NCBI GenBank assembly: GCA_913056165.1
Contig: CAJXMD010000004.1
Location: 1-64,000, forward strand
DNA from: an uncultured Halieaceae bacterium
GTDB lineage: Bacteria; Pseudomonadota; Gammaproteobacteria; Pseudomonadales; Halieaceae
Direction: 5' to 3'
Length of the DNA stretch: 64,000 nucleotides
The first letter of the stretch is position 1. Each line of letters begins with the position of its first letter. Positions 9,002 through 48,991 of this stretch are shown here, piece after piece. The notes under the pieces were generated by a model. It worked only from the letters and a program-made list of their open reading frames with translations. It was not told where the DNA came from and made no database searches. A program made the position numbers and the translations under genes.

Positions 9002-9335
9002 CGATGGATGACTGAATATGAACCGCTCGCACTATACGCCAGCAACAAAAATGATCAACTTTAATTGACCCATAGGAAACCAAAATTTACTACATTCGGA
9101 CCACGTCCACTTACGCTTGGACTGAGGAGCCAAATATTTATCATCAGGCAAAGAGCCACTGCTCGGAAATCAAGCACCGGCGATTCGTCAAAGCCGCACG
9201 AAAGGAAGGTTATATGGGCATTGCCGGGGAATGTTGTTGGGGCGCGCCTATCACATACATGCAAAAAATCACGCGTAAAGGTCTCACCCAGACAGGCAAT
9301 AAAAAGCCTTTCTATGTGAATTCAACCTGATATAT

Positions 9336-9358
9336 CATTTCACTTGAAATGTTTTTTG
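9336..9358 (+). promoter_or_regulatory. Shared palindromic operator, site 1 (CATTTCA-CT-TGAAATG + T6)
   Basis: Perfect 7-bp arms with 2-nt spacer, 19 bp before the Rieske ATG; recurs upstream of other island operons. Confidence 0.75.
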
Positions 9359-9369
9359 GGTGAAAGACC

Positions 9370-10356
9370 ATGAGCAAACGTTATAACTTTCCGATGCCGT
9401 TCGGCTGGTATCAAGTTGCCTACTCAATCGATCTTGAGGTGCGTCAGTCCAAGCCATTGCACTACTTTGGCCAAGAGATGGTCATGTTCCGCGGCGAAGA
9501 CGGTCGCGTTCGTGTGCTCGATGCGCATTGCCCCCACTTGGGCGCTCACCTCGGCTATGGCGTTCACGATGCAGAAGGTGGCGGCAGAGTTGAAGGTAAT
9601 AATATCGTTTGTCCGTTCCACTCATGGAAGTTCAACGGCGACGGCCAAGTGGAGGAAATCCCATACGCGAAAAACATTCCACCTAAGGTCAAGGATAAGC
9701 AGTGTATTCGCTCGTGGCATGTCGAAGAGAAGAATCAGGTCATCTGGGTGTGGTACCACCCCGATAAAACGGTAGCGCCCAAGTGGAATGTGGCAACAAT
9801 CCCCGAAGCGGATGACCCTTCGCTGGGCTGGTCAAAGGTCGACAGGTCAAAGGTGAAAACCTGGCGTATGAAGACCATCCCTCAGGAAATCGCCGAAAAT
9901 TCAGTTGATTTCGCGCACTTCATCTATGTTCACAAGGTCAAGAGTGATCCGAGTGCCGCTGGAGACTACGACGGCCACCACTGCCAGCGCGTGGTCAAGG
10001 CAAACATGGAGACACCTCGTGGCGTCATTGAAGGCAGCATTAACAGCGAAAACTGGGGGCCAGGCCAGAGCCAGATTCGGTTTACTGGCATTACGGAGAC
10101 CCTGCTGTTCGGCAACCTTGTTCCGGTCGACGAAGAGTTGGTTGAAATCAACTTCACGTTCTTCCAACCGCTGGTCAATGGTGAGGCGCCGAAGGGCGGT
10201 GTTCAAGACGCGATCATCAAGGACTTGATTCGCCAACTGGATGAAGACAAGATTATTTGGGAGAAAAAAGTCTATCGAGAAGCGCCCGCGCTGTGTGACG
10301 GGGACGGTCCTATCGCCCGCTTCCGCAGGTACTACTCACAGTTCTATGCCGAATAG
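9370..10356 (+). CDS. Rieske 2Fe-2S aromatic-ring-hydroxylating-type oxygenase (KshA-like)
   Basis: CPHLGAHLG...CPFHSWKF Rieske ligands; ENSVDFAHFIYVH mononuclear iron motif. Confidence 0.87.
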   Translation: MSKRYNFPMPFGWYQVAYSIDLEVRQSKPLHYFGQEMVMFRGEDGRVRVLDAHCPHLGAHLGYGVHDAEGGGRVEGNNIVCPFHSWKFNGDGQVEEIPYAKNIPPKVKDKQCIRSWHVEEKNQVIWVWYHPDKTVAPKWNVATIPEADDPSLGWSKVDRSKVKTWRMKTIPQEIAENSVDFAHFIYVHKVKSDPSAAGDYDGHHCQRVVKANMETPRGVIEGSINSENWGPGQSQIRFTGITETLLFGNLVPVDEELVEINFTFFQPLVNGEAPKGGVQDAIIKDLIRQLDEDKIIWEKKVYREAPALCDGDGPIARFRRYYSQFYAE

Positions 10357-10527
10357 AGAGGTCGAGTGAGTACATGTGCGCGCTGCCAATGAACCACCTC
10401 CATGCGCTGCCTTGGCACATCTCTCGTCTACATCCTGCGAGATACGCCGACTGAAGACACCCGTTCCGTAGTCTCGGTTACCATTTGGCTCCGCTTCGTT
10501 GATATCCTGCTATTCGATGGCCGTCGG

Positions 10528-11982
10528 TCAACCGGCTAGTGCTGCCTGGCGTCCGGCCAACCTGCCAAAGAAGGTGGCGTCCCCGACCGACATGCCGCTG
10601 GCATAACCCTCACCGGTGCGCGGGATACCAGCGGCGGTGCGACCAGCCGCATACAGTCCTGGAATGACATCACCGTCCGATGTCAACACTTCACCGGTCG
10701 AGCGTGTTTCAAGCCCGCCTAATGTGAATACCGTTGGGTGTAACTTATCGAGGCTGAAATCTACAAGCGCGAACGGCGCTTCTGACAGCGGAGTCAACCA
10801 GTCGGCAGACTTATTGAACAGCGGATCCTCGCCGCGCTCTGCGTGCGCGTTGTAGTAGGCTACGGTCCGTTGCAGGCTACCAGCCGGGAGGCCTGCTTCT
10901 TGTTCAACCTCTTCGATCGTCTCTCCGACAGCAACTATCTCGGTCGTATCGTGGTAGGCAGGCCGGCTGAAGTGCGCATTGTCAATAAAAAGGTATGCCC
11001 GGCGCCCGTGCTGTCGAAAAACGTGCTCTCCCATGCGCGCGAGGTAGACATCCTCGTTGACAAATCGCTGGCCAGCCTGGTTAACAAAAATACCATAGGT
11101 CAATTCTGCCGGGGGGTAATGCGCGACGCCAATAAATGCCTCGCCCATGTTGATCGCATTGCCGCCGGCGGCGACCCCCATAGTGATGCCATCGCCTGTG
11201 TCACCGGGGTTGCCATGGCGTGTCGCAAAGCTCTCTTGACGTGGGATGTGACGTCGGGTCATGCGTTCGTTCATGATGAATCCGCCCATAGTCAGGACGA
11301 CTCCCTTACGCGCTCGGATGTAACGCATCTCATTGTCAATTTTTACCCCGACCCCGCAGACACTGCCATCGCCATCGGTGATCAACTGCCCTACCCGAGC
11401 ATCAACGATTACTTCCGCACCGGCGTCGCGAACTCGCTTTTTAAGCACGCCCATTAATACCTTGCCGCCATTGTGATCCGAATCCGCCGGCAAATGACCA
11501 CGGGGCACTGGCTCACACACCAAATTGAATGGCCAGGCGCGCTCGTTACCAGTGTATTGGAGAGAATCACCCGTCATTGCAACGACATCTCTGCCACCGA
11601 AAAAACCTCGTTTGTAGGGCACACCTTGCGCCTCCATCCAATCAAAATGCTCGGCTGCACCTTCGGTATAGGCGGTCAAACGCTCCGGATCATGGTTTTC
11701 GCCGAAGCACTGGAGTAGGTACGCTCTGAAGTTTTCGTTGCTGTCTTCAAAGCCCAGTTCGCGCTGAAGCGAGGTACCGCCACTGCCACCGAGATACATC
11801 TCGCAGGCTGATAGCTCAGTCGAGCCGCCACCATCACTAAAGCGCTCTAGAACAATGACATCCGCTCCATTTTGCCGTGCTTCGAGAGCTGCGCACGCCC
11901 CTGCGCCCCCAAAGCCGCAGACCACGACATCAGTCTCCCTATAAAAATGCGGTACCTCACCCAGTGCAACTGTCTTCTTCAT
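10528..11982 (-). CDS. FAD-dependent oxidoreductase (KstD/fumarate reductase flavoprotein family)
   Basis: DVVVCGFGGAGACAALEARQNGADVIVLERFSDGGGSTELS; C-terminal GLYAAGRTAAGIPRTGEGYASGMSVGDATFFGRLAG. ORF start 12003; MKKTVALGE at 11982 is an alternative start. Confidence 0.85.
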   Translation of the reverse strand: MKKTVALGEVPHFYRETDVVVCGFGGAGACAALEARQNGADVIVLERFSDGGGSTELSACEMYLGGSGGTSLQRELGFEDSNENFRAYLLQCFGENHDPERLTAYTEGAAEHFDWMEAQGVPYKRGFFGGRDVVAMTGDSLQYTGNERAWPFNLVCEPVPRGHLPADSDHNGGKVLMGVLKKRVRDAGAEVIVDARVGQLITDGDGSVCGVGVKIDNEMRYIRARKGVVLTMGGFIMNERMTRRHIPRQESFATRHGNPGDTGDGITMGVAAGGNAINMGEAFIGVAHYPPAELTYGIFVNQAGQRFVNEDVYLARMGEHVFRQHGRRAYLFIDNAHFSRPAYHDTTEIVAVGETIEEVEQEAGLPAGSLQRTVAYYNAHAERGEDPLFNKSADWLTPLSEAPFALVDFSLDKLHPTVFTLGGLETRSTGEVLTSDGDVIPGLYAAGRTAAGIPRTGEGYASGMSVGDATFFGRLAGRQAALAG

Positions 11983-12017
11983 TGAGCAACTCCATGCATT
12001 CATTTAGAATAAAATAT

Positions 12018-12040
12018 TATTTCAACTGAAATGTTTTTTG
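12018..12040. promoter_or_regulatory. Shared palindromic operator, site 2 (TATTTCA-AC-TGAAATG + T6GG)
   Basis: 13/14 to CATTTCANNTGAAATG; lies in the divergent region between the flavoproteins at 10528-11982(-) and 12250-13911(+). Confidence 0.72.
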
Positions 12041-13985: not shown

Positions 13986-14528
13986 ATGACAGACAAAAAT
14001 AACAGCCTACCTATTGATGCCAGTAGCATGCAGCAGCTGCTGGATCACCAGCTGATCACCGACCAACTCCATCGTTATGCAAGAGCGATGGATCGAATTG
14101 ACAACACACTTGGACGTTCGGTATTCCACGAAGATGCTTTGGCCGACTACGGTGAAATTTATCAAGGCACAGGCCACGGCTTTGTCGAGTGGGTAAGCGA
14201 AATGCATAAAACACTGCTCACGCACGCGCATCTGCTGGGCAACATATTGATCTGCATCGATGGTAATCGAGCTGGAAGCGAAACCTATGTTTCTGTCGAG
14301 GCGCGTTTCGCCGATGAGAATCAGCTACTCATAGGTTTGACGTCGCGCGGACGATACATTGACCAGTGGGAGAAGCGCGAGGATGGCGTGTGGCGCATTT
14401 CTCACCGCCGATATATACAGGAAATGGATGCCTCTGCTCCCGTGACATCGACATATGACACCGCCGGTTCACGCGATAAAGAGGATCCTAGCTACGAAGT
14501 ACTTAACTTGGACGCTAGGCAGACTTGA
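13986..14528 (+). CDS. NTF2-like/SnoaL-like protein
   Basis: QLLDHQLITDQLHRYARAMDRIDNTLGRSVFHEDALADYGEIYQG...GVWRISHRRYIQEMD typical of SnoaL-like domains. Confidence 0.8.
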   Translation: MTDKNNSLPIDASSMQQLLDHQLITDQLHRYARAMDRIDNTLGRSVFHEDALADYGEIYQGTGHGFVEWVSEMHKTLLTHAHLLGNILICIDGNRAGSETYVSVEARFADENQLLIGLTSRGRYIDQWEKREDGVWRISHRRYIQEMDASAPVTSTYDTAGSRDKEDPSYEVLNLDARQT

Positions 14529-15868: not shown

Positions 15869-16018
15869 CCACCCCAATTTTCAAGCGTCAGGCGCACGTT
15901 CGTAGGCGTCGAAAAGCGCTACAGCGTCTACGATGCTGAATATTCACCCGAACAGGGAGTCGATCACAGTTTCAATTTGATGATCGTGGAACGCCGCGGA
16001 ATTACCCGGTCAGATTAG
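15869..16018 (+). pseudogene. Possible 3' gene remnant without a start codon
   Basis: Open frame after TAA (15866) to TAG (16016-16018): PPQFSSVRRTFVGVEKRYSVYDAEYSPEQGVDHSFNLMIVERRGITRSD; protein-like composition, family not identified. Confidence 0.35.
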
Positions 16019-16638
16019 GTCACCGGATATAACATCTGGATAATTTGAGCCTTTAGCCGTTTAACATAAGGGCTGGGAGAAAAACTCTGGGGCTCCAGAG
16101 CCATCTCGATAAGGATTCCTGTTAGCAGGCAATGAACCATGTAGATGGACTCCTGTAAAACCGTATCAGAAACATCGGCATCGTAAAAAATAGTTCGCGC
16201 CATCTCCATGTGCGCATCGCGACTGCGACTAATGGAAAGATCGTTACTCGCCTTACCGTGCCCACGCGTTGCTAGCAAAATTTCCATCGTCGCCATATAT
16301 TCGTCGCCCTGGTAGTGGTACCAAGCTGCGTCCACATATTTCGCGACGCGACGCTCCGCACTGCCGGTTGTAAACCGCTTTGAACTGAGCGTTTCCTGAA
16401 ATTTGATATGTGATCGTTGCAAGACCTCTTCTAGGATGTCCTCTTTGGAGCCAAAATGATGCTGCACGGCACCCCAGGTAATTCCCGCGCGTTTGGCGAT
16501 CTGCGCTGAACTCGCTGCCGAGAAGCCTTTCTCCTTAATCAGGCCCACCACGGCATTGATAATTTTGTCCTGCGTTGCCTTGCTCTTGGCGGCCTGAAGA
16601 CCGATAGAATTAACGTCAGCCAAGGTAGGTTTGCTCAC
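16015..16638 (-). CDS. TetR/AcrR family transcriptional regulator
   Basis: KIINAVVGLIKEKGFSAASSAQIAKRAGITWGAVQHHFGSKEDILEEVLQRS HTH domain; divergent from the P450 gene. Confidence 0.9.
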   Translation of the reverse strand: MSKPTLADVNSIGLQAAKSKATQDKIINAVVGLIKEKGFSAASSAQIAKRAGITWGAVQHHFGSKEDILEEVLQRSHIKFQETLSSKRFTTGSAERRVAKYVDAAWYHYQGDEYMATMEILLATRGHGKASNDLSISRSRDAHMEMARTIFYDADVSDTVLQESIYMVHCLLTGILIEMALEPQSFSPSPYVKRLKAQIIQMLYPVT

Positions 16639-16828
16639 TTTAATGCTCCTAATTCAAAACGTGCCAAGTTTACACCACAGGCAAACCTGTGGGTCCCGGT
16701 GATCGATTTTCACCTCTGTTAACCCCACGCGGTATTTTGCACCCCCCTTTTGAGTGATTCTACAGGCGCTGAGGAGGCTGGGATTACCCGCTATTGTGCC
16801 CTTTCCCGTAGGTCTTTTAAATGAAAAA

Positions 16829-16850
16829 CAATTCTTGTAAAATGTTTTAT
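16829..16850 (+). promoter_or_regulatory. Shared palindromic operator, site 3 (CAATTCT-TG-TAAAATG + TTTTAT)
   Basis: 11/14 to consensus; between tetR(-) and P450(+), 32 bp from the P450 ATG. Confidence 0.55.
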
Positions 16851-16876: not shown

Positions 16877-18220
16877 ATGACTAAGGCAAGGAATACAATT
16901 CCGTTTGTGAGCGGTTCAAAGGGTGCTGAAAACGGCGGTCATTTCGATGAATTCTGTGCTCACCCCGCATTCTTCTTGCTTCGTGCATTTCAAGAATGTG
17001 GCGAGCTAGCCGAGTTTGATATGGGCGGTACCAATACCGTGTTAATGGTTGGTCCCGAAGCGCATGAAGCCGTTTTCCGCGCTGATGACATCAAAGTAAG
17101 TGCGCCCCAAGCCTATCAATTCATGGTGCCAATTTTTGGAGAAGGCGTTCAGTACGGCGCTCCTATTGATATTGAGCGACAACAGTTGCGAATGCATTCA
17201 CGCGGCCTCGCTAGTGAAAAAATGAATCACTATGCCCCTATCATCGCCCAAGAGACTCGTGACTGGATTGCATCTTGGCCCGACAGTGGCGAGATGGATT
17301 TCTACGAGGGTTTCGCTGACCTTACGATCAAAACATCAACCCACTGTCTGCTGGGTTCTGAATTCCGCAATACGCTCACCGAGGAATTCGCATCCCTCTA
17401 CCATACGTTGGGGGCGGCAGCTGACGCCGGGGGATTGGGTGATCCGGGAGCTCAGAAGGCGGCATACGCGGCGCGCGACGCAGCGCGTGCACGGCTGGAA
17501 GAGCTCATCAGTGAGTATGTTGCCAGACGACGAGAGAACAACGAAATTCATCAAGATTTGCTGCAAGTTTACATGGATACGACCTACCCGGATGGCCGTC
17601 ATCTCACTGTCAGCGAAATAGCGGGTATGGTGGTCTGGTTCATGTTTGCTGGTCATCATACGAGCGCCAACACCGCCGCATGGACAATAGTCGAGCTAGC
17701 GCGAAACCCTGAGCTCGCCGAGTTAGTTATCCAAGAGATCGACAACTTTGTCAGTACCGGTGACCAATTCGATGTAAGAACCTTACGCCGAATGTCTAAG
17801 TTGGAAGGCTTTGTTCGTGAAACACTGCGAGTTCACCCGCCACTGAATACGCTTACGCGCCGAGTGGTGGAAGACTTCGAATATAAAGGTTATGTCATTA
17901 AAGCAGGGAAAAACGTAATGCTAAGTCCTTACGTTGCCCACCGGCTTGAAAGCTCTTTCGTTAACGCTGAGGCCTTCGTACCCGATCGTCCGCTACCCGA
18001 AAATCCATTTGCGTTAATCCCGTTTGGCGGTGGCCAGCGCAAGTGCATCGGAAATGCTTTCGCATTTCTGCAAGTCAAGGTCATCTTCACAGTCCTGCTC
18101 AATGAATTTGAATTTGAATTAGCTGGTCCGTCCGGCGAGTATGCCGAGATTATGCCTTCGCTCATTCTTCGCCCATCTGAGCCTTGCGTTTTGCGCTATC
18201 GTCGCCGAAAAACCGGTTAA
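16877..18220 (+). CDS. Cytochrome P450, CYP51 (sterol 14alpha-demethylase)-like
   Basis: 447 aa; YQFMVPIFGEGVQY; I-helix MVVWFMFAGHHTSANTAAW; ETLRVHPPLNTLTRRV; heme loop PFGGGQRKCIGNAFAFLQVKVIF; similar to recalled mycobacterial CYP51 throughout. Confidence 0.85.
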   Translation: MTKARNTIPFVSGSKGAENGGHFDEFCAHPAFFLLRAFQECGELAEFDMGGTNTVLMVGPEAHEAVFRADDIKVSAPQAYQFMVPIFGEGVQYGAPIDIERQQLRMHSRGLASEKMNHYAPIIAQETRDWIASWPDSGEMDFYEGFADLTIKTSTHCLLGSEFRNTLTEEFASLYHTLGAAADAGGLGDPGAQKAAYAARDAARARLEELISEYVARRRENNEIHQDLLQVYMDTTYPDGRHLTVSEIAGMVVWFMFAGHHTSANTAAWTIVELARNPELAELVIQEIDNFVSTGDQFDVRTLRRMSKLEGFVRETLRVHPPLNTLTRRVVEDFEYKGYVIKAGKNVMLSPYVAHRLESSFVNAEAFVPDRPLPENPFALIPFGGGQRKCIGNAFAFLQVKVIFTVLLNEFEFELAGPSGEYAEIMPSLILRPSEPCVLRYRRRKTG

Positions 18221-18245
18221 CTAGACCGATCCGAGGAAAAATTTA

Positions 18246-18464
18246 ATGCCAAAATATCGAGTAGAAGTCGACCAAATGCTCTGCCAAGGCCACGGTATTT
18301 GCACAGAGGAGTGCCCAGAGAATTTTGAGGTTATGGACGTTGAAACCGGCTATCCCAAGGTCAACATAAAAAACGAAACGCCTGGAGAAGATATTCTAGC
18401 GCGTGTGCAAGACGCCGTTATGTACTGTCCAAATCAAGCGCTTAAACTAATCGAGATAGAATAA
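18246..18464 (+). CDS. P450-type ferredoxin (3Fe-4S/4Fe-4S)
   Basis: 72 aa; CQGHGICTEECPENF...YCPNQAL (CxxHxxCxxxCP...CP); directly downstream of the P450. Confidence 0.9.
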   Translation: MPKYRVEVDQMLCQGHGICTEECPENFEVMDVETGYPKVNIKNETPGEDILARVQDAVMYCPNQALKLIEIE

Positions 18465-18479
18465 TATCCAGCAGCGCGT

Positions 18480-18896
18480 TCACCCGAGTCGCTCGATCAC
18501 TATCGTCCTGAACAGGTTATCTGAGTCAGCCTCATAGGTTCCGCGCAGCTTGAGTTCAAATGACTCCCCCGCAGCCACCTGCATGCCCAAAAAGTCTTCT
18601 ACGTCAACTTTCGCTGTAAAGCGATCAATGATCGCTACTATCGCTATTTGTCCATCAATATGAATAGAAGTTGGCGTCATCTTGTCATGAAAAATACCGA
18701 TGATTTGACGATAGGTTGCAAGAACAGCCTCCGCGCCTTTCATGACTCCGGCCTCCGAAGTCAGCTCGACCTCCGGGTGATAGTAGGATGCCAGTGAGTC
18801 GACATTTTCGGTGTTGTAAGTCTGGTAATAGCACTCCATGTAGTGTGTATCCACGGGATCATCTCCGGTTGTGCTCTGAGAACCACGCCACCGCAT
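18480..18896 (-). CDS. NTF2-like/SnoaL-like protein
   Basis: YYQTYNTENVDSLASYYHPEVELTSEAGVMKGAEAVLATYRQIIGIFHDKMTPTSIHIDG; true start may be MECYYQTY (18839). Confidence 0.75.
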   Translation of the reverse strand: MRWRGSQSTTGDDPVDTHYMECYYQTYNTENVDSLASYYHPEVELTSEAGVMKGAEAVLATYRQIIGIFHDKMTPTSIHIDGQIAIVAIIDRFTAKVDVEDFLGMQVAAGESFELKLRGTYEADSDNLFRTIVIERLG

Positions 18897-19887
18897 CTCG
18901 TACCGTTTCTTCTATGGCACGCGGCGCCCAACCAAGCTCCTGACGCGCCTTGGAATTGTCGAGCTCGGTGAATACCTCAGATAATTTGATCGAGCTGCGA
19001 CAGAAACGCTGGTCTTTGCGCCTCAGAATCCAGGAAAAAAACTCATTGATGGCTGCCATTCTGTAAGCAGTCTTCATTTTCATGATTTTTGGGGGCGTCT
19101 TACCAAGTTCGGTAGCGGCAAGACCATAAAGTCTCTCCTGAGATACAAACTCATTGGAGACAATGTATCGCTCACCCACTCGACCATACTGTTCAGCTCG
19201 TAACATAGCATCTGCGGTATCTCGAATATCAACTGTCGGCGAGCTGCATTCCAGAGCCGCCGGCAGCGTGCCTTTTGCGGCTTCCCATAAGGCGCCGCCA
19301 TGAGGTGTCGGCAGGAAGTCACCCGGTCCATAGGTGTTCGCCACACACATCGAAATAGCCGGGAAATCGTCTTTATGGCAGGCATCTAACAGAATGTTCT
19401 CGGCATCAACACGCGCCCGCGGATACGGAGACGCCTCATCCCACCAGTCGAACGCCACGGTTTCATCCGAGGGCTTGCCGTTCTTACCTTTTACACCGAC
19501 CGTCACCATGCTACTGGTGAAAATAAGCCGCTTGATGCCAGCGTTTTTTGCCGCCGCCAGTGCCGTACGCAAACCCTCGACATTGGTCTTGAAAAGCACC
19601 GTTGGATCGCTGAGCCAGGAGCGCGCGTCGACGATGCTGTAAAACACGGTGCCGCAACCACGCATCGCCGCTTCCATTGACGCCTGATCAGAAACATCAC
19701 CGTAGAATATCTCGACATCAAGCCCCGTGATCGACGACAGATCGCTGGTTTTTCGCACCATCGCGCGAACCTTGCGCCCGCGCTCCAACAGGGCTCGAAC
19801 CGTATGACTGCCCACAAAACCAGTGGCCCCAGCAACGAGTGCAGGGGCTTTACACAGCTCCGTATATTCGTTCACTTCGGGATTCAT
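18859..19887 (-). CDS. NAD-dependent epimerase/dehydratase, 3beta-HSD-like
   Basis: ALVAGATGFVGSHTVRALLERGRKVRAMVR; VFYSIVDARSW; YPRARVDAENILLDA. Confidence 0.85.
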   Translation of the reverse strand: MNPEVNEYTELCKAPALVAGATGFVGSHTVRALLERGRKVRAMVRKTSDLSSITGLDVEIFYGDVSDQASMEAAMRGCGTVFYSIVDARSWLSDPTVLFKTNVEGLRTALAAAKNAGIKRLIFTSSMVTVGVKGKNGKPSDETVAFDWWDEASPYPRARVDAENILLDACHKDDFPAISMCVANTYGPGDFLPTPHGGALWEAAKGTLPAALECSSPTVDIRDTADAMLRAEQYGRVGERYIVSNEFVSQERLYGLAATELGKTPPKIMKMKTAYRMAAINEFFSWILRRKDQRFCRSSIKLSEVFTELDNSKARQELGWAPRAIEETVRDAVAWFSEHNRR

Positions 19888-20300
19888 TGCTCGCTGTTTT
19901 CCATTTGCGCTGATACCGCCTCAGCATCCCAGTATGCTTTCAGACTGGTCAGCAGACCGCTGTCGTTAACTTCGTATACAACCACCATTTCAATCGACAC
20001 TTTCAGACCATTCAGATTATTAGCGGCGGTTATCGTCGCTGCGCAGACATCAGAACCACAGGCAATACGCTTGTGCGAGGTAAGAATGAGATCCGCCGGC
20101 CCGATCATCAGGTCCCAGAACGCTGAAATGCGCTCCCCTCCCCTGAAACCCTTACCCTCAGGGTCATGTAATGACGGTCCGACCGGGTCAAAAACTATCG
20201 CATCATCGGCAAACAGGGCCAGCCATTTGGCTTTATCGCCCTCCATTGCTGCCTTGAGGGACATTAGGTGTGCGCGGATTGCAGGTGTATCAGTCGGCAT
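19884..20300 (-). CDS. NTF2-like/SnoaL-like protein
   Basis: 138 aa; IRAHLMSLKAAMEGDKAKWLALFADDAIVFDPVGPSLHDPEGKGFRGGERISAFWD; overlaps the epimerase start. Confidence 0.8.
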   Translation of the reverse strand: MPTDTPAIRAHLMSLKAAMEGDKAKWLALFADDAIVFDPVGPSLHDPEGKGFRGGERISAFWDLMIGPADLILTSHKRIACGSDVCAATITAANNLNGLKVSIEMVVVYEVNDSGLLTSLKAYWDAEAVSAQMENSEQ

Positions 20301-21323: not shown

Positions 21324-21857
21324 ATGGAGGGAATTCAAATGGAAGACATCGCCACCTTACGCGACAAGGACGCCATCCGCGAACTGGCCCTACTTTACTG
21401 CCGTGGCGTTGACCGAAAAGACCCTGAGCTGCTTCGCGAGCTATATGCCGATGGTGCCACAGACACCCATGGCAACGACTTTGACGGCAGCGCCCAAGAC
21501 TTCGTCGCGTTTTTGGAAAAATCATTTCCAATCATGCCCTACAGCGGACACCATGTGTGCAACCACCTTATCTCGCTCGATGGTGACACTGCCGAAGGGG
21601 AAGTCTACGCATTGGCGTACCATATTCTGCAGGGCGAAAAACCCGATGAATGGGTAGAGCATTTTCTCAGCGTGCGCTACCTTGACCACTACCAGCGAGA
21701 GAGCGACGGCAAGTGGCGTTTCGCCAGCCGTGTAGTGCATTATGACATCCAACGAATCGGACCCTGTGAGCCTCCATTGCACCAGCTAGACGCTATCGAT
21801 GATCCTAGCTTCAACGTTCTCGCATCACGCTTGTTTGCAAGAGGTCCAAGAGCCTGA
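21324..21857 (+). CDS. NTF2-like/SnoaL-like protein
   Basis: DKDAIRELALLYCRGVDRKDPELLRELYADGATDTHGNDFDG...HYQRESDGKWRFASRVVHYD; likely start MEDIATL. Confidence 0.85.
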   Translation: MEGIQMEDIATLRDKDAIRELALLYCRGVDRKDPELLRELYADGATDTHGNDFDGSAQDFVAFLEKSFPIMPYSGHHVCNHLISLDGDTAEGEVYALAYHILQGEKPDEWVEHFLSVRYLDHYQRESDGKWRFASRVVHYDIQRIGPCEPPLHQLDAIDDPSFNVLASRLFARGPRA

Positions 21858-21873: not shown

Positions 21874-22308
21874 ATGAATAATATCGAAACCAACAAGCAA
21901 CTCACACGAGCTTTCTTCGAAGCACTGCAGACTGGAGACGGCCATCAGATAGCAGATTTTTACGCTGATAACGGTCGCGTTGTCACAATGGGCAACACGC
22001 TGATTTCAGGGTCTCACGAAAAGGAGGAGATCCGCCAATTTGCAGCAGGTGTGCTGGAGGCATTTCCTAATGGACTCGTGTTTTCGGTGCACACGCTGAC
22101 TGCAGAAAACGATCGCGTCGCTGTCGAAGCATCCTCCCGCGGCATACATTCATCCGGCCTTCCTTACGAAAACCACTACCATTTCCTGTTCACCTGGAGA
22201 GACGGCAAGCTGATGGAATTGAAGGAATACATGGACACTGAAGTCATTACCGACGTGCTCTGCGCAGGCCATCGCCCCCAGCCCGCCACCACTGGAGAAC
22301 ACGCATGA
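21874..22308 (+). CDS. NTF2-like/SnoaL-like protein (ketosteroid isomerase-related)
   Basis: QLTRAFFEALQTGDGHQIADFYADNGRVVTMGNTLISG...GKLMELKEYMDTEVITDVL. Confidence 0.85.
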   Translation: MNNIETNKQLTRAFFEALQTGDGHQIADFYADNGRVVTMGNTLISGSHEKEEIRQFAAGVLEAFPNGLVFSVHTLTAENDRVAVEASSRGIHSSGLPYENHYHFLFTWRDGKLMELKEYMDTEVITDVLCAGHRPQPATTGEHA

Positions 22309-26044: not shown

Positions 26045-27043
26045 ATGAAAGTCCTGGTTACCGGCGCAACCGGATTTATCGGCAGCCATATCGTCGACCA
26101 GGCGGTCAACGCTGGATACCAGGTAGGCGTACTGGCGCGCAATCCAGACAAGCAGCGTAGCGTTCTCGCCAAACTCGGTGTCGATCTCGACAGCGTCAAT
26201 GTGCACCAAGGTGATGTACTCGACGCAGACTGGGCGTCATTGCTGCCCGGCTACGAAGCGCTAATACACAGCGCTGGCATGATGTCCAAGAACATGGCTG
26301 ATGCCAACAAACTCTGGGCGCTCAATGTAACTGCCAGCGACCTGTTGCTTAAATCCGCAGTGGACCTCGGGCTGGATCCTGTCATTCACCTGTCCAGCTT
26401 TATGGCCATGTTTCCGCCGCAAGGCGACGTTATCAAGGCCGACGACCCGGTTAAAGAGCCCGACTCGATGTACGCCAAGACCAAGGCGCAGGCTGAACGC
26501 GACGCACGCGCTCTGCAGGCCACCGGGGCACCTGTTGTTTGCGTTTATCCCGCATCCGTGAACGGCCCGCAAGACCCCACCGTCGGCAGCGGTCAGGAAT
26601 TTATCGCCAATGGGATCAACGAAGGAAAAATGTTGGTGACCGAAGGTGGACTGACATTCACCGACGTTCGTGACCTTGCCCTGCTGGTAACACGCCTGCT
26701 GGAACCCGGCAAAGGCCCTCGCCGCATCATGTCAACAGCCGACTACCTGACGCACCAGCAAATTCTGGACCTGATGAGCGAATTGTCAGGAAAAGAAATC
26801 GCGGCTGTACGGATGCCAGGCTGGCTAATGCGCATGATCGGCCGCATCGCAGACATCAAGCAGAAGCTATTCAGAGGCCCCACGCCGGAGCTTACCTACG
26901 AAACCGCCATGGTGCTGACCAAATGTGTTCCGCAAGCTGACGCCGAGGCTAGAGCTATTCTTGGTAACGATATTATCGGCGCGGATCAATGTCTTCGCGA
27001 TATGGTTCGATGGATGATAGAGCAAGGCATCATAAAAAGATAA
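26045..27043 (+). CDS. NAD-dependent epimerase/dehydratase, 3beta-HSD/sterol-4-carboxylate dehydrogenase-like
   Basis: MKVLVTGATGFIGSHIVDQAVNAGYQVGVLARNP; MYAKTKAQAERDARAL (YxxxK). Confidence 0.85.
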   Translation: MKVLVTGATGFIGSHIVDQAVNAGYQVGVLARNPDKQRSVLAKLGVDLDSVNVHQGDVLDADWASLLPGYEALIHSAGMMSKNMADANKLWALNVTASDLLLKSAVDLGLDPVIHLSSFMAMFPPQGDVIKADDPVKEPDSMYAKTKAQAERDARALQATGAPVVCVYPASVNGPQDPTVGSGQEFIANGINEGKMLVTEGGLTFTDVRDLALLVTRLLEPGKGPRRIMSTADYLTHQQILDLMSELSGKEIAAVRMPGWLMRMIGRIADIKQKLFRGPTPELTYETAMVLTKCVPQADAEARAILGNDIIGADQCLRDMVRWMIEQGIIKR

Positions 27044-27057
27044 AAGGAGATAATGCG

Positions 27058-27924
27058 ATGGCAAACGGATACTGGCTCTCCAAAAACCCGGATAAGGCCT
27101 GGGCAGAAAAGTTTTTCCTGACCGTCATTCCGTGGTGGTTTTTCTACAACATGTTGATGGTCCAAATGGGATGGCTTCAAACCGGCACTTTTTGGAACTT
27201 CATGCAGAACTTCCTGATGTGGTTCCCGTACTGCGTAATGGTTCCGTGGTTTCTACGTCGCAACTCTGGAATCCCATGGCACGAAAGTTACTGGTTTAAG
27301 TTTAACCTGTATCTATTTTGGCTGATTTTCTTCGTTACCTACTTTCACACCGAGTATTTTTTTGAGGTGCTAGGCCTGCGCTACCGCTTCCCTGAAGTAA
27401 CGCTGTACTTAGACTCAGCACTGGTTGGGCCAGCGGAAAGTACGGCCTTGGAAACTTTCCAGAAAATACCCCCTTCCATGTATTTCAACTCAATCGTTTT
27501 CTTTATCGTCTATCACGTCAGTGCGGTGATTGTCATGCGACGCATTCGAACAATGACGATCGGCTGGAGCTCCGGTGCATCAAAATTCATTGCTTGGTGC
27601 GCAATTGTTGGACTGATCTCGGCTTTCTGGGGGTGGGGCGAAACCTACATGTATTTCGTCATGATCGCACACCCAGAAGACCCCGCTTCCGTGAACGTCT
27701 GGTACGAAAATCTCCATAATATGCTTTGGATCGGTTCGTGGTACTACGCACTTTACTTCGTTGTCTCGTTCCCCAATATCTATCGGCTGGATGAAGACGC
27801 CACTGGCGAACGGTGGTCAATTAGTAGAACGTTAATTGAGGCCACTTTCGCCTCGATGATCATGCTGCTGCTGATCGACCTCGCAACGTGGGGTCTGATG
27901 TTAGCGGAGATAAAGATTTACTAA
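27058..27924 (+). CDS. Cycloeucalenol cycloisomerase-like integral membrane protein
   Basis: YWLSKNPDKAWAEKFFLTVIPWWF; YWFKFNLYLFWLIFFVTYFHTEYFFEVLGLRYRFP; VFFIVYHVSAVIVMRRIR; YYALYFVVSFPNIYRLDEDATGERWSISRTLIEATFASMIMLLLIDL resemble recalled plant CPI1 segments in the same order. ORF starts 26989; MANGYW (27058) follows an RBS-like AAAGGAGA. Confidence 0.68.
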   Translation: MANGYWLSKNPDKAWAEKFFLTVIPWWFFYNMLMVQMGWLQTGTFWNFMQNFLMWFPYCVMVPWFLRRNSGIPWHESYWFKFNLYLFWLIFFVTYFHTEYFFEVLGLRYRFPEVTLYLDSALVGPAESTALETFQKIPPSMYFNSIVFFIVYHVSAVIVMRRIRTMTIGWSSGASKFIAWCAIVGLISAFWGWGETYMYFVMIAHPEDPASVNVWYENLHNMLWIGSWYYALYFVVSFPNIYRLDEDATGERWSISRTLIEATFASMIMLLLIDLATWGLMLAEIKIY

Positions 27925-33552: not shown

Positions 33553-35808
33553 TCAGTTAAAACTGTACGTAATGTCCAGACCATAAGTTCTAGGTTGATA
33601 ATACGTACCTGCAACGACCACGCCCAGTGCCGGCATGTTGTTCGGCTCGTCAACATCAGTCAGGTTACGGCCCCACAACGCCAACGACACGACGCCTCCA
33701 GCAAATTTAATATCATCGATTGAGACGCGCGCATTAAAACGAGTAAGCGCCTTATTTTTACCGTCCGCAAACGGAACCGGTCTCGTCCCCATCCATTCCG
33801 AGGACCGGTACGACGCATCAACGTGAAAGCGTAGCGCGGAGTTTCCGAAAACCGGCCCTGTTTCATAATCTGCCATTAAACTTCCAGTCCAATGGGGCCG
33901 CAAATGCGGCGCAATCGGGCCTCCCAGAAGCGCAAAATTGACATCGGTAAATTCAAAGTCGAGATACCCAAGATTCAAACCTAGCTGCAAGTCAGCCACT
34001 GGCAGCCACTTGCCCTCGAATTCGAAACCACGAGCTTCTGAGTCGCCCGCGTTAACAAGTACTTGGGAAGCTGGAACCGGCGGATCAACTTGCAGACCAG
34101 ACGTACCAAATTGCTGGTTGGTATACTCCACATGAAAGGCAGACAGGTTGGCCATCAGCTTACCCCCGAGGAACAGTCCTTTAAAGCCTGCCTCATAGGA
34201 ACGAGCCTCTTCTGATTCGTAAGCCACGCTCGATACCAACCCCCCCGAAATGTAGCCCGTAGAGGCTTTGGCATACATCATCAGGTCATCTGACATATAG
34301 TAATTAGCACCCAACAGCCAAGTGAACTCATCCTCGTCATAGTTCGAGTAAACGATGCCCAGGCCAACGGACTCCAGCGTACGGTCGACATAATCTTTTT
34401 TGTCACGGGTCGCTCTGCCACCGACAACCAGCTCGAGATGCTCATTAGTCCGGTACTCTAGCTGGCTGTACACCGCAGTAGAGTCAGCATCAACTTGTGA
34501 CTGATTCGAGGGCGTAAATCCGGGAAATAAATTGCCGCCGAAAATGCCGTTTTGCATATTACGATACCCACCCGCCAAGGACTCCAATCCGTAATACAGG
34601 AAACCCGATGTGAGGGTAAATTTGTCCGTGTCCCAAATCACTTGAAACTCTTCTTGCGTCTCTTCTTTATCAACGCCGCCGGTTACCACAAATGCCAGCG
34701 CCACTGTTTGCTCCAGTGGCTGACCGAGTGACGGCAAATAAAGGCCCATACCATCCAGCGTTTGACCGGGAACCTCAACCAACCCCTCACGGTATGACAG
34801 AATATTTCTAACGCTTAGGGTATCGCTGAGAGCATACTCTACCGTCAGGTTATGCCCCTCCGCTTCCAAGTAACTTGGAAGATGGATTGGGTTGTTTACT
34901 TGATCGGGACGACCAAGACTGAATGATGGCTGCCACATAAAATCCTGATATATACCTGGCATTACCCCGATGATCCCAACTGCCGAGGGAGTCATTTCAC
35001 GCTCGCTGTGGTCAAACTTATAGGTGATGTCTAGGTTGTCGATGAGGTCAAGCTGAACGGCCAGGGAGATCGCATCAACATTTTCATCACCAAGGCGCTC
35101 GGGCGAGGTCTCAACCCCTCCGCCAAATGGCGTAAGATCATATGTCGCCCCCGCGGCCAAATTATCAACGGGCCCATCGATCTCAGAGTGAGTGTAATTT
35201 AGCGAAGCGCGAAGCAATCCAATCTGGGGCGTGTCGATGCGTGTTTTGGATTGAAAGTGCCCGTAATTGCCAACCGTCAATTGCTGTCTAAAGCCGAATT
35301 CGCCTGGAGGGTTCCGCGTTATGAAGTGGATAGCCCCACCAGAAGTATTTCGCCCAAAAAGCGTTCCTTGAGGGCCCCGCAGAACCTCGATTCGCTCAAT
35401 GTCAGCATAGTTGACGACTGCACCACTTCCGCCCTTGAGGTAAACACCATCAAGGTAAGTTGCTACTCCGCTATCGGCACCCAGCGCCGTCCCGCTCGCC
35501 TCTAGGCCTCGCATCTGGTACTTGATGGACTGGGTACCACCAGAGCCTTCAACGGCTGAAAGGTTGGGCACCATTAAGCCAATATCCAGCAAGTTGTCGA
35601 TACGAAGATTTTCGATATCGCGCGAGCTGAACGCGGTAATGGAAATTGGTACTTCTTGCAGAGTCTGCTCCCGTCGCTGCGAGGTAACCACGATTTCTTC
35701 TAGAGCCAGCTGCTCGGAGGCAACCGGCAACGCGGTCATAGCGAAGGGCACGTGTAACGTAGCAAAAATCGCGCCTCTGACCGCACTGCTTAAGTTATTT
35801 CTACTCAT
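33553..35808 (-). CDS. TonB-dependent receptor
   Basis: 751 aa; plug motifs EEIVVTSQRREQTLQEVPISITAFSSRDIENL and RIEVLRGPQGTLFGRNTSGGAIHFIT; C-terminal aromatic residue. Confidence 0.95.
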   Translation of the reverse strand: MSRNNLSSAVRGAIFATLHVPFAMTALPVASEQLALEEIVVTSQRREQTLQEVPISITAFSSRDIENLRIDNLLDIGLMVPNLSAVEGSGGTQSIKYQMRGLEASGTALGADSGVATYLDGVYLKGGSGAVVNYADIERIEVLRGPQGTLFGRNTSGGAIHFITRNPPGEFGFRQQLTVGNYGHFQSKTRIDTPQIGLLRASLNYTHSEIDGPVDNLAAGATYDLTPFGGGVETSPERLGDENVDAISLAVQLDLIDNLDITYKFDHSEREMTPSAVGIIGVMPGIYQDFMWQPSFSLGRPDQVNNPIHLPSYLEAEGHNLTVEYALSDTLSVRNILSYREGLVEVPGQTLDGMGLYLPSLGQPLEQTVALAFVVTGGVDKEETQEEFQVIWDTDKFTLTSGFLYYGLESLAGGYRNMQNGIFGGNLFPGFTPSNQSQVDADSTAVYSQLEYRTNEHLELVVGGRATRDKKDYVDRTLESVGLGIVYSNYDEDEFTWLLGANYYMSDDLMMYAKASTGYISGGLVSSVAYESEEARSYEAGFKGLFLGGKLMANLSAFHVEYTNQQFGTSGLQVDPPVPASQVLVNAGDSEARGFEFEGKWLPVADLQLGLNLGYLDFEFTDVNFALLGGPIAPHLRPHWTGSLMADYETGPVFGNSALRFHVDASYRSSEWMGTRPVPFADGKNKALTRFNARVSIDDIKFAGGVVSLALWGRNLTDVDEPNNMPALGVVVAGTYYQPRTYGLDITYSFN

Positions 35809-35918: not shown

Positions 35919-35942
35919 AAAAAAAACATTTCACTTCAAATT
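35919..35942 (-). promoter_or_regulatory. Shared palindromic operator, site 5 (minus read AATTTGA-AG-TGAAATG + T8GG)
   Basis: 12/14 to consensus; T-tract oriented toward the TonB receptor gene. Confidence 0.7.
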
Positions 35943-35963
35943 ATTTCATATAAAATGTTTTTT
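35942..35963 (+). promoter_or_regulatory. Shared palindromic operator, site 6 (TATTTCA-TA-TAAAATG + T6G)
   Basis: 12/14 to consensus; abuts site 5 with the opposite T-tract orientation, pointing toward the MFS gene. Confidence 0.7.
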
Positions 35964-38704: not shown

Positions 38705-39008
38705 TTTTCATTATCCTTTAGTCGTTGCTCTTCAATGGTACAGGCAAACTCTGCTTGCAGCTTGAACCGGAAAGCCAAGAACGAATACAAAACGAAACTA
38801 ATGTGGCATATCAGTTTTTCTGCCTCCGATTCCATGCGGCCGCCATCACGAAACCCATCGCTCTTGGCTGCGGTCCTCATTGGGCCATCAGCATTTCTCG
38901 ATTAGTGGCAACCTACACCTTTAATCAATATAAGTTGACCCTAGGACAACATTACATTACTTTTGTAAAAAGTAAATCACGTTCTTGATTTATAACGCGG
39001 GGAAAACA

Positions 39009-39749
39009 ATGAATTTTGACTTCAACTATGATTGGCTTGCCAGCTTCGTATGCTTCGCCGGCCTAGTGCTAACAAGTATGGTTGGCCGCGCGATCGCCTT
39101 TCGCATTCCAGCTTTAAAGCAAACGCTGGAGGTAAATGTTGCTGAAAACCAAGAGAAGTGGCACGAACAGGGAAAGAAGTACCACCATCGGGTGAAATCC
39201 AGCAAGCAAATTGGTTTCGCTATTAACCTCTTTTTTTATGTTGCAATCCTGCCATTCATTGCGTCGATGTCGCCTCAATCCATCTGGAAAATTCTCCTAG
39301 ATGTTGTCCTGATACTGATGGTTTACGACCTGTTCTACTATGTCGTCCACCGTTTCCTTTTTCACGGTGAAGGGTATTTCCGCCGGGTCCATGCGGTTCA
39401 CCACCAGGCTCGGAGTCGCGTTAGCTCTATTGACTCGCACCTGCTCCATCCAATGGAAATTTTTATCGGAATTGCGCTGTATTTCCTCACGATATCGCTG
39501 TTGGCCATACTGGGTTTGGCACCTTTCCACGTTGTCACGATCATCATATCGACGGTGGTCTACGTTGAACTGAACCAAATAAATCACTGCCGGATAGACC
39601 TGCAAGGGTTCCCTTATCGGCTGATCAACTGGATTGCGATGAAGCACGACGCTCATCACATCAATATGCACAAGGGTAACTTTGCGACCATCACGTTGCT
39701 GTACGACAAAATGTTCGGCACTTATGAAATCCACCCTCTGGAAAAATAA
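39009..39749 (+). CDS. Sterol desaturase/fatty acid hydroxylase superfamily protein
   Basis: His boxes HRFLFH, HAVHHQ, NHC, HDAHHINMH; ORF 38985, likely start MNFDFNYDW. Confidence 0.9.
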   Translation: MNFDFNYDWLASFVCFAGLVLTSMVGRAIAFRIPALKQTLEVNVAENQEKWHEQGKKYHHRVKSSKQIGFAINLFFYVAILPFIASMSPQSIWKILLDVVLILMVYDLFYYVVHRFLFHGEGYFRRVHAVHHQARSRVSSIDSHLLHPMEIFIGIALYFLTISLLAILGLAPFHVVTIIISTVVYVELNQINHCRIDLQGFPYRLINWIAMKHDAHHINMHKGNFATITLLYDKMFGTYEIHPLEK

Positions 39750-39978
39750 TTCGCGACGCTATCAGCGGAGCGAGATGGAATTGGGTAGATCAACCCAGAC
39801 ATCACGTACGCTGTATCTAGGCCATTAAGTGAGTAGCTGGGCCGGATAGCCCACCTCAGCCGGAAAATGGCGTCTGGCGAGGGCTTTTTCACCTAGCACA
39901 ACGATCTAAACCAAACGGACTACGGCAATCGGGGTTGCCTGTCCTTGCTTGTAATTTGGCTCCAAGCTATCCTGTAAA

Positions 39979-39999
39979 CATTAGTGGTGAAATGTTTTT
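39979..39999 (+). promoter_or_regulatory. Shared palindromic operator, site 7 (CATTAGT-GG-TGAAATG + T5)
   Basis: 11/14 to consensus with one perfect half-site; upstream of the TonB receptor gene at 40132. Confidence 0.55.
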
Positions 40000-40131: not shown

Positions 40132-42519
40132 ATGATTAAACTACCCCATCAAAAATTCAGAAAAACTGCTCTTGCTACAGCTCTAGCGACTGCGTCGTTT
40201 TCCGTGCCAACACTGACGGTAGCTCAGGAATCCGCAATGCTCGAGGAGGTGATTGTCACTGCTCGAAAGCGCGCAGAAAACCTCCAAGAAGTCCCATTTA
40301 GCGTCTCAGCATTCACAGGCGATCAATTGCGCGATGCTCAAATTGACAACATGGTTGAGGTCGGTCGCCTCAGCCCTAACGTTCAAATCAATGAAACCAA
40401 CTCACTGGGCAGCGGGTCCTTAACCGTGTACATACGGGGTATTGGTGCGAACCCCAGCTATGAACAAGGGGTGGGGCTGTACGTGGACGATGTTTATCAC
40501 CCACGCCAGACCGGTGCGCTGATGGAACTGTATGACGTTGAGCGCATTGAAATACTGAAAGGCCCACAGGGGAACTTATACGGACGCAATACAATTGGCG
40601 GCGCCATCAAATATATCACCCGCGATCCGAGTGAGGAGTTCGAGGGAAGCTTGGAGCTCAAGTATGGAGACGAAAGCTACACCCGTCTGAAAGGCAGCAT
40701 ATCGGGCCCGTTAACCGACACGTTGGGTGGGACCTTTGCGTTTTCGCGATCAACTCGCGACGGCTGGCAAATGAATGAAGCCACGGGGCAAGAGTATTGG
40801 GACTTGGATACCGCCTCATACAGAGGTGCGTTGCTATGGGCGCCCACAGACAACTTCAAAGTCAAATTTACCGCTGAATACGTTGACGATCAGTCACTGC
40901 CTTATGTGCCGCAACGAGTCTCACTGAATGAGGGAACACTGAATATTTTGTCGTTAATCACAACCACGGCAAACCAGATCTTCTTCCCCGGCGCCGCGCC
41001 CAATGCGGAGCCCCATGACCTAGCAATGCCGACGGATGAGGACACCTTCCGCAGCAGCTTTGATGCAGGCTTCAAACAGCGTTTTCTAGAGCTCAACAAC
41101 TACGCACTGACCGCGAGCTGGGACATTAATGACCAGCTCACCCTCAAGTCGGTTACTGCACAGCGCGAGACGAGCGCCACTCAGCCCTATGATCATGACG
41201 TGAGCACCCAGCAGTGGATTGATACTTTGCGTAGCGATATCGACACCACGGACTTTAGCCAAGAGTTTCAACTTAACTACACCAGCGAAAACGTCGCTGC
41301 TGTAGTGGGTTACTACTATTTGGATGGCGACTATGATCAAGGCAGCGCCTTCACACCACAAACACCTTATCTCAGAGGCACTACAAACCAGTCCAAAGAC
41401 ACCTATTACCAGAAGCGAACGCTCAGTTCCCACTCTGTGTATGGGAACGTCGATTGGAATGTGACTGAGAAATTCCAGCTTTCCTTAGGTGCACGCTGGA
41501 CGGAAGATGAAATTGAGGAAGAATCAAAATCATGGACAACCAATGGCTACTACCCGTTGGCCATCACGCAATTTACAGGGCCATTGCCACTGGCGATTGC
41601 GCCGGGTGCAGAAGCTGCTGTGGAGGGCATTTTCCCCTACGTTGGCGGTATGTGGATCACTCCTTACACTCGCTACTTTGAGCTAACCGTGCCCGAAGAC
41701 ACCTATGGCAAGGACACATTCGATGAAATCACAACGACGGTGCGCGCCAAGTATCAAATCAGCGACAACTTGATGGTCTACGCAGGTTATGCTGAAGGGT
41801 TCAAGGCCGGTGGTTTTAACCGGAACTCCGCCATCGCAAACCGCTTCGAACCAGAAACCGTGAATACCTATTCGGCTGGTTTTAAATCGACGCTGCTCGA
41901 TGGCACGTTGCGGTTTAATGCGGAATATTTCCACAACGAGTACGACGAGATGCAAACCCTCGCGGTGACATTGATAAATGGTGACCTGAGCAGCGTTACC
42001 CGCAACGTGGGTGCTGCAACCATTTCCGGGTTTGAAGTGGAGACCATGTGGCTGACACCGCTAGACGGCTTTATGCTAAGTGCAAACATTGGTTACTTGG
42101 ACAGCGAAATTGATCAACTTTTGCTTGATAACGCTGACGGTACTACCAGCAACGTAGCTGATACGCACGAACTTGGCTACGCGCCAGAGTTGACCGCCTC
42201 GATTCGCGCGATGTACAACACCGACGTCGGCAGTCTAGGTGAACTCACCTTCGCCGTGGATTACGCCTATCAAGATGATATGTATGTTGAGTCTCCGATT
42301 AACTTGGAAGACCCCTTAGACGCTTCTAAGTTTGCAAATGCATACGGCACTTGGAACGCCATGATCGCACTTGAGACTGAAAATTGGCGCTTTGCGGTAG
42401 AAGGTAAAAACTTGACTGACGAGCGAGAACTCGTGAGCGCCTTTGACATCTCTTTGATGACTGTCGGTGGTTATAACGCTCCACGTTTCTGGGCAGCATC
42501 GGCGGAGTACAAGTTCTAA
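40132..42519 (+). CDS. TonB-dependent receptor
   Basis: 795 aa; LEEVIVTARKRAENLQEVPFSVSAFTGDQLRDAQI; RIEILKGPQGNLYGRNTIGGAIKYIT; C-terminal FWAASAEYKF. Confidence 0.95.
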   Translation: MIKLPHQKFRKTALATALATASFSVPTLTVAQESAMLEEVIVTARKRAENLQEVPFSVSAFTGDQLRDAQIDNMVEVGRLSPNVQINETNSLGSGSLTVYIRGIGANPSYEQGVGLYVDDVYHPRQTGALMELYDVERIEILKGPQGNLYGRNTIGGAIKYITRDPSEEFEGSLELKYGDESYTRLKGSISGPLTDTLGGTFAFSRSTRDGWQMNEATGQEYWDLDTASYRGALLWAPTDNFKVKFTAEYVDDQSLPYVPQRVSLNEGTLNILSLITTTANQIFFPGAAPNAEPHDLAMPTDEDTFRSSFDAGFKQRFLELNNYALTASWDINDQLTLKSVTAQRETSATQPYDHDVSTQQWIDTLRSDIDTTDFSQEFQLNYTSENVAAVVGYYYLDGDYDQGSAFTPQTPYLRGTTNQSKDTYYQKRTLSSHSVYGNVDWNVTEKFQLSLGARWTEDEIEEESKSWTTNGYYPLAITQFTGPLPLAIAPGAEAAVEGIFPYVGGMWITPYTRYFELTVPEDTYGKDTFDEITTTVRAKYQISDNLMVYAGYAEGFKAGGFNRNSAIANRFEPETVNTYSAGFKSTLLDGTLRFNAEYFHNEYDEMQTLAVTLINGDLSSVTRNVGAATISGFEVETMWLTPLDGFMLSANIGYLDSEIDQLLLDNADGTTSNVADTHELGYAPELTASIRAMYNTDVGSLGELTFAVDYAYQDDMYVESPINLEDPLDASKFANAYGTWNAMIALETENWRFAVEGKNLTDERELVSAFDISLMTVGGYNAPRFWAASAEYKF

Positions 42520-45678: not shown

Positions 45679-45972
45679 CTAGAACTCGAATTGGCTGGTA
45701 GCGTACGATGCCATGACCTCGCCACAGACTGGAAATATAACCTCAGCGTGAGCAGGATGTGACGCGTAAACTAAAAAGTCATCCTTGCTCGAAAACTCAG
45801 CAACCACTGCCAATCCGGCGTTACCCTCTAGCAACTCGAGATCAAGGCCGCATCGGAATGCTTTGACTTCTGAAATTAGTGCTGGCAGCTGTTCAAAGGC
45901 TTCCAGCACCTTTTGTTTTCGTACTGTGTCAGTGTCTTCTTTAAAATAAATCAAAGTAATGTGCTGAATCAT
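45679..45972 (-). CDS. Dabb (stress-responsive alpha/beta barrel) domain protein
   Basis: 97 aa; MIQHITLIYFKEDTDTVRKQKVLEAFEQLP...DDFLVYASHPAHAEV. Confidence 0.82.
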   Translation of the reverse strand: MIQHITLIYFKEDTDTVRKQKVLEAFEQLPALISEVKAFRCGLDLELLEGNAGLAVVAEFSSKDDFLVYASHPAHAEVIFPVCGEVMASYATSQFEF

Positions 45973-47168: not shown

Positions 47169-47186
47169 GATGCTCTCCATCTAAAA

Positions 47187-48934: not shown

Positions 48935-48991
48935 AACTCTGTCCAAGCTCGTAATGTGTGCCAGTATTTTGATTTCAGGGTAGCATAAAAA

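Follow-up and report, generated by a model that had tools for sequence, protein, structure and literature searches.

The CYP51 proteins are generally viewed as a P450 family whose single conserved function is to remove the sterol 14alpha-methyl group during sterol synthesis. The reason why sterol-degrading bacteria such as mycobacteria retain a CYP51 is an open question on which the locus described here bears. The described systems most like this locus include the CYP51-ferredoxin fusion of Methylococcus capsulatus (PDB 6mcw, 7jj1, 7snm), mycobacterial CYP51B1 with its Fdx (Rv0764c/Rv0763c), the operons of marine gammaproteobacteria with the gene order Bsr-CYP51-Fd-SdmB-like, and the plant segment that processes the sterol nucleus (SMO, 3betaHSD/D, CPI, CYP51 and C14 reductase). 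The CYP51 of M. tuberculosis (Mtb) is supported by Mtb Fdx, and the motif CxxHxxC(x)nCP defines the 3Fe-4S P450 ferredoxins (PMC9868604). In bacteria, the NTF2-fold 8,14-sterol reductase (8,14-Bsr) is often co-localised with canonical ferredoxin-linked CYP51 genes (PMC13277303). We describe here a P450-ferredoxin pair encoded in a window of 64,000 nucleotides from the metagenome-assembled genome (MAG) of an uncultured Halieaceae bacterium. Searches of open-access literature on the breakdown of cycloartenol, on sterol P450s of Halieaceae and on CPI in bacteria found no report of its P450 subfamily.

The P450 gene (16877-18220, + strand; 447 aa) encodes the motifs MFAGHHTS, YQFMVPIFGEGV and CIGNAFAFLQVK. 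It is followed 25 bp later, in the same direction, by a gene for a single-cluster ferredoxin (18246-18464, + strand; 72 aa), which contains CQGHGICTEECP and, distally, a CP; the gap holds a purine-rich GAGGAAAA upstream of the ferredoxin ATG. The positions, motifs and spacing given for both genes in the initial annotation proved exact. Pfam places the P450 in PF00067 (211.7 bits) and the ferredoxin in Fer4_15 (41.5 bits); no NCBIfam P450 model scored near its cutoff on the window. The best PDB sequence matches of the P450 are M. capsulatus CYP51 (E 1.9e-102) and mycobacterial CYP51 (E 1e-94 to 3e-91), and those of the ferredoxin are Mtb Fdx and the ferredoxin domain of the Methylococcus fusion. 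The CxxHxxC(x)nCP motif, the length of about 70 aa and the Fer4_15 domain all identify the ferredoxin as Mtb Fdx-type, and an extra Cys23 is common to the Halieaceae members of subclade A and some members of clade C (both defined below), others being without it. Adjacency of the two genes is kept in 11/11 subclade A and 11/15 subclade B relatives. Such matches are not due to chance; with the conserved adjacency they bear out the annotation of the ferredoxin as dedicated, and it is probably the cognate electron donor of the P450. As in mycobacteria, a separate ferredoxin gene lies just downstream of the P450 in a host that apparently does not make sterols. The Methylococcus enzyme has the I-helix His-His-Thr and the kind of ferredoxin in common with the window pair, but there the two proteins are fused, and the window host has neither a cyclase nor a Bsr partner for the P450.

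An AlphaFold2 model of the P450 (mean pLDDT 91.5) retrieved only CYP51 structures among its best 50 PDB fold matches, with the Methylococcus enzyme first (TM 0.91-0.94, about 40% identity). Rooted on the human-type side, the tree places the P450 inside the ferredoxin-linked bacterial CYP51 clade (support 99/96), where it is surrounded by the Methylococcus and mycobacterial types. Two remote P450s were placed outside. Subclade A, to which the window P450 belongs, forms with subclade B and a deltaproteobacterial branch a superclade of 30 rows (100/100), and this joins clade C, the canonical CYP51s of Halieaceae and other gammaproteobacteria, together with a Cellvibrionales pair (100/99). The relative order of the Methylococcus, mycobacterial and C plus A/B groups is weak (82/65), and a long branch leads to human CYP51. 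In the A/B superclade the named hosts comprise Parahaliea, Haliea and Sediminihaliea (Halieaceae), Spongiibacteraceae, Rhodospirillales MAGs and Croceicoccus estronivorus; those of the deltaproteobacterial branch are myxococcal MAGs.

By the naming convention for P450 families, about 40% identity to an established member suffices. The window P450 is 40-41% identical to the M. capsulatus enzyme and 44% to the Methylotuvimicrobium buryatense homologue, which makes it a CYP51, borderline given the 36-37% to Mtb (also the value in the fold comparison). The clade C enzymes belong to the same larger clade and have the same ferredoxin type; they share 46-50% identity with the window P450 and differ in keeping the canonical pocket. 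Mycobacterial CYP51B1, too, has a canonical pocket. Placement outside CYP51 in a robust tree, the outcome named beforehand as contrary to a CYP51-like assignment, did not occur: the P450 nests in the bacterial clade and is, by phylogeny, a member of the CYP51 family. Yet it is no ordinary CYP51, and the account with the best support places it in a divergent, catabolic subfamily, driven by ferredoxin and acting on an imported sterol. The remaining P450s in this genome, scanned as short fragments, yielded no informative name.

Active-site and pocket residues were compared clade by clade in an alignment with Methylococcus (Mca), mycobacterial and human CYP51; the reference PDB sequences were taken from printed alignments, and the human sequence was checked against PDB 4uhl. 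The window P450 keeps Y80, F87-G88, A258, G259, R328, C390, the ExxR motif and H261-T262, the last being the I-helix His-Thr signature that is invariant across all groups. Within the B'-helix/BC-loop signature Y-x6-F-G-x-x-V-x-[YF]-[DA], Y80, F87, G88 and Y93 are retained, Mtb V88 is replaced by Q92, and Mtb D90 corresponds to G94 in all A, B and delta-type rows. The Asp at this position is not universal in CYP51, as the trypanosome enzymes illustrate. These two substitutions are fixed or nearly so in subclades A and B, as are Mtb S252 to W254, M253 to F255, I322 to N324 (11/15 in B) and M325 to T/S327. At the F'' position of Mca Y186, where canonical bacterial CYP51s carry Tyr or Phe, both subclades have L187 or another non-aromatic residue, and the hydrophobic and aromatic sterol contacts of helix F'' and the beta1-4 entry are not conserved (Y/F to L187, I to N324, M to T327). 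G94 and W254, the latter in place of a small residue, also fall on or beside positions that touch the sterol in solved CYP51s. In the Methylococcus CYP51-lanosterol complex the sterol 3-OH bonds Y186 and the main chain of L324 (PMC9519919), which puts several of the changes where the A-ring sits. In 12/12 subclade A rows Gly (G179) replaces the helix-F acid (Mca E178); subclade B has Glu or Asp there, and almost every canonical bacterial clade has Glu. This acid, linked to the I-helix His, is part of the CYP51 proton switch, and its release is reported to be a requirement for proton delivery in the eukaryotic enzymes (PMC9519919). F82 aligns with the B'-helix Phe/Leu position, at which mycobacterial CYP51B1 also has Phe (F78), and a plant-like Phe there goes with a preference for the C4-monomethyl sterol obtusifoliol (PMC11089504). 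The position is variable, being Tyr in freshwater members of subclade A and Met in subclade B, and F82 serves as a clue to a C4-monomethyl substrate that falls short of proof.

The loci also differ in their partners. Counting gaps up to about 1 kb as adjacent, 8,14-Bsr accompanies the CYP51 gene at 20/22 loci of clade C, 2/2 of the Cellvibrionales pair, 10/12 of the Methylococcus type and 6/8 of the mycobacterial type. No genuine Bsr was found in the operons of the 26 A/B relatives, which against 38/44 canonical loci gives a p of 8e-14, a nominal value computed per locus on loci that are related. The window does encode a distant paralogue, an NTF2-fold protein 4 kb from the P450 gene (22305-22829, + strand) that has no Pfam match and is 25% identical to Bsr (phmmer E 2.5e-13 to 4.8e-11 with 47 window proteins searched). 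The protein retains the key residues Y37, Y43, Y81, D131 and D134 (window numbering; Y37, Y43, Y80, D133 and D136 in Bsr) and has Phe at the Bsr Y78 equivalent, a substitution tolerated in published 8,14-Bsr (PMC13277303). Its orthologues, mostly 64-81% conserved, occur in about 54/120 family genomes. Many of these lack such a P450, which weakens the case for a dedicated CYP51 partner, and the protein looks like a general steroid gene. Among the NTF2/SnoaL proteins of the window, it alone matches Bsr sequences or a Bsr-only profile. Five more small SnoaL/NTF2-like proteins, an unusual number, are encoded together in one cluster (13986-14528, 18480-18896, 19884-20300, 21324-21857 and 21874-22308).

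A luciferase-like flavin monooxygenase (45969-47180, - strand) is instead the usual neighbour of the P450 subfamily. In many A loci and four B loci the gene adjoins the P450 or sits close by, and its product is 70-87% conserved alongside the subfamily in Halieaceae, Spongiibacteraceae and Rhodospirillales; it was not found near canonical CYP51 genes. Several genomes, clade C hosts among them, carry both a subclade B P450 and a canonical CYP51, about 4-5 kb apart in G084 and G044, so the two probably do different jobs. In two Halieaceae loci, a canonical operon of the order Bsr-CYP51-Fd-SdmB-like and a subclade B gene stand within about 5 kb of each other (9474-11384 and 14713-16071 in L044; 6237-7583, with the P450 at 12327, in L045).

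The sterol-contact changes, the loss of the helix-F acid and the lack of an 8,14-reductase neighbour mean that a C-14 (or C-4) methyl oxidase, as initially annotated, is not established. Because features tied to 14-demethylation were tested and found wanting, we do not file the P450 as a proven sterol 14alpha-demethylase. The same evidence makes possible, if somewhat doubtful, a neofunctionalised CYP51 paralogue that would oxidise an exogenous steroid elsewhere, at the C-4 methyl or by hydroxylation without C-C cleavage, or would take a 3-oxo or A-ring-modified catabolic intermediate as its substrate. It would account for the replacement of Mca Y186 and I323/L324/M326 by L187 and N324/T325/T327 at the pocket end that receives the sterol 3-OH in the lanosterol complex, for the missing helix-F acid of subclade A, for the contrast in Bsr between canonical and A/B loci, for the coexistence of subclade B and canonical genes, and for the luciferase-like neighbour. 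It fits less well with the catalytic residues, the fold and F82, all of which are CYP51-like, and with subclade A genomes, which have no other CYP51 for the 14-step.

A further gene of the window also speaks for 14-demethylation. The product of 26989-27924 (+ strand; start probably the ATG at 27058) appears homologous to the plant cyclopropyl-sterol (cycloeucalenol) isomerase CPI1, with 30% identity to the Arabidopsis protein over about 297 columns (E 2e-31) and no match to any Pfam or NCBIfam model. Full-length homologues occur in 7/9 subclade A genomes and 0/about 111 others in the family sample (p 6e-10), and none was found in 368 other gammaproteobacterial genomes. Freshwater relatives (L120, L121) encode the homologue directly or closely downstream of the P450-ferredoxin pair, while one genome (G006) has the pair and the luciferase-like gene and lacks it. 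In two other lineages (L142, the CPI-bearing clade C operon, and L144) the homologue ends a canonical Bsr-CYP51-Fd-SdmB run. An SdmB-like NAD-dependent epimerase/3beta-HSD-type enzyme, scoring below the curated cutoff, is encoded just before it in the window (26045-27043, + strand), and homologues of this protein adjoin CYP51 and CPI genes in relatives. Because CPI acts before CYP51 in the plant pathway, the pairing of CPI and P450 is chemically coherent and fits 14-demethylation better than oxidation elsewhere. The requirement for CPI in plants has been documented (PMC8172173).

Phylogeny, the catalytic residues and the association with CPI together make the 14alpha-methyl the likeliest target, and we regard it as evenly poised whether the P450 acts as a catabolic CYP51-family demethylase for exogenous 14-methyl sterols. 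The substrate would probably be without a 4beta-methyl (obtusifoliol-like), formed from a 9,19-cyclopropyl sterol, for instance cycloeucalenol, through ring opening by the CPI homologue; the adjacent ferredoxin would feed electrons to the P450 from a reductase that is not local. Tentatively, we propose that the gene cluster carries out a so far undescribed bacterial nuclear demethylation of foreign cyclopropyl 14-methyl sterols of the cycloartenol/cycloeucalenol type. In this route the CPI homologue would open the cyclopropane, and its product would pass to a catabolic CYP51 whose pocket has been re-cut; the subfamily may be the first CYP51 branch specialised for degradation. Like the plant segment, the cluster has a member or distant relative for several steps; it differs in being bacterial and apparently catabolic, in having an NTF2-type reductase candidate, and in that its candidates for the C-4 step, in a putative role, are a Rieske oxygenase and a fatty-acid-hydroxylase superfamily protein. 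The Rieske protein (9370-10356, + strand) has a KshA_C domain and is weakly similar to the SdmA model, far below its cutoff. The hydroxylase (38985-39749, + strand), conserved in relatives, belongs to the superfamily of the eukaryotic C-4 sterol methyl oxidase.

Expression of the P450 appears to be tied to that of uptake and oxidation genes. The intergenic region between the P450 and a divergent TetR-family regulator (16015-16638, - strand) contains a palindrome, AAACATTT-N6-AAATGTTT, that is conserved in relatives; the operator-like site itself, AAACAATTCTTGTAAAATGTTT, occupies 16826-16847, 29 bp before the P450 start. Further sites lie upstream of the Rieske gene (9333-9354), of the luciferase-like gene (47184-47205), of a TonB-dependent receptor gene (33553-35808, - strand; two overlapping sites at 35924-35945 and 35939-35960, together 35924-35960) and of a second TonB-dependent receptor gene (40132-42519, + strand; 39976-39997, one mismatch), both receptors having been assigned by reading the translation. 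A weaker site with three mismatches (12015-12036) is found just upstream of an FAD_binding_2 flavoprotein gene identified by profile match (10528-12003, - strand). The window thus contains seven palindromes with <=3 mismatches where 0.35 would be expected. Only six sites with <=2 mismatches exist in the whole 2.43-Mb genome, and every one of them falls within the window, preceding the P450, Rieske, luciferase-like and two TonB receptor genes, one of the latter by a double site. Most relatives have this palindrome ahead of the P450 or of its luciferase-like neighbour. The sites are direct evidence, at the sequence level, for co-regulation of the P450 with genes of uptake and oxidation. The TetR protein, 70-78% conserved and encoded next to or near the P450 in relatives, is the candidate regulator that would bind the palindrome. 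The TonB receptors may import the foreign sterol, and the luciferase-like, Rieske, flavin and SDR enzymes, the CPI homologue and the P450 would then strip and rearrange its nucleus before this enters steroid-ring degradation; import, substrate, methyl position and the order of steps are all our inferences. A shared operator connects the P450 subfamily with genes for uptake and oxidation, and a CPI homologue co-occurs with it, which makes catabolic use of a CYP51 directly testable; cultured Parahaliea/Haliea-type hosts offer natural CYP51 paralogues with a re-cut pocket. The locus also suggests how marine bacteria may attack sterols with 14-methyl and cyclopropyl groups, for example those from algae and protists.

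The proposal that the substrate is exogenous was first argued from the window alone, and it holds across the whole genome and 19 relatives. No match to the squalene/oxidosqualene cyclase domain (SQHop_cyclase_C) was found in the MAG (86.7% complete); of 19 further Halieaceae genomes that carry A, B or C P450s, the majority >90% complete, 18 lack the cyclase and one has a 23-bit fragment. Two genomes with fused CYP51-ferredoxin genes, used as positive controls, scored strongly in the same search. The only squalene-epoxidase-family match, of 21 bits, was taken as UbiH-like, since E. coli also matches in that search. With no convincing cyclase in the genome or its relatives, the host appears unable to make sterols and the substrate is probably an exogenous sterol. 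The working controls lead us to rule out endogenous sterol synthesis, and an ordinary biosynthetic CYP51 of the Methylococcus kind, to which the rank of that enzyme as the closest solved relative might point, is barely credible beside these searches and a catabolic regulon with TonB receptors.

The catabolic genes occupy about 1-51830 of the window and end at a tRNA-Arg(tcg) (51831-51907, - strand), an edge defined by synteny with congeners. To its right the genes are syntenic in congeners, and the PPK encoded there is 88% identical to that of a congener; to its left the catabolic genes are absent from that place. The PPK match and the synteny up to the tRNA make contamination or misbinning unlikely. 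As the cluster is missing from the tRNA-Arg site in congeners, and the P450 from all 20 listed same-genus genomes, the cluster is most likely an acquired island. A search for an att repeat of the tRNA-Arg 3' end found none, and no integrase was noticed among the window ORFs. Many of its genes belong to broad families (SDR, ALDH, SnoaL-like, amidohydrolase, DUF3604), as would be expected of a general catabolic island for hydrophobic compounds with a P450 acting on another triterpenoid or a xenobiotic. We think such a non-sterol substrate unlikely, since a 3-ketosteroid delta1-dehydrogenase (KstD)-like flavoprotein found by profile match (47261-48994, - strand) and the KshA-type, Bsr-family and CPI homologue genes all indicate steroids. 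Seven KshA_C Rieske matches were counted in the genome, the best of them on a different contig, and together with the KstD-like gene they fit steroid degradation. That contig (G000:C53; loci L002, L219 and L220) holds the strongest match (178 bits) along with another such match and, at the contig edge, a partial P450, and is probably the core steroid-degradation locus. Fused CYP51-ferredoxin genes were also observed in Halieaceae genomes that hold subclade B and clade C members (L053, 9118-10878; L054, 9177-10862); they fall near the mycobacterial-type branch in the tree and have Bsr nearby.
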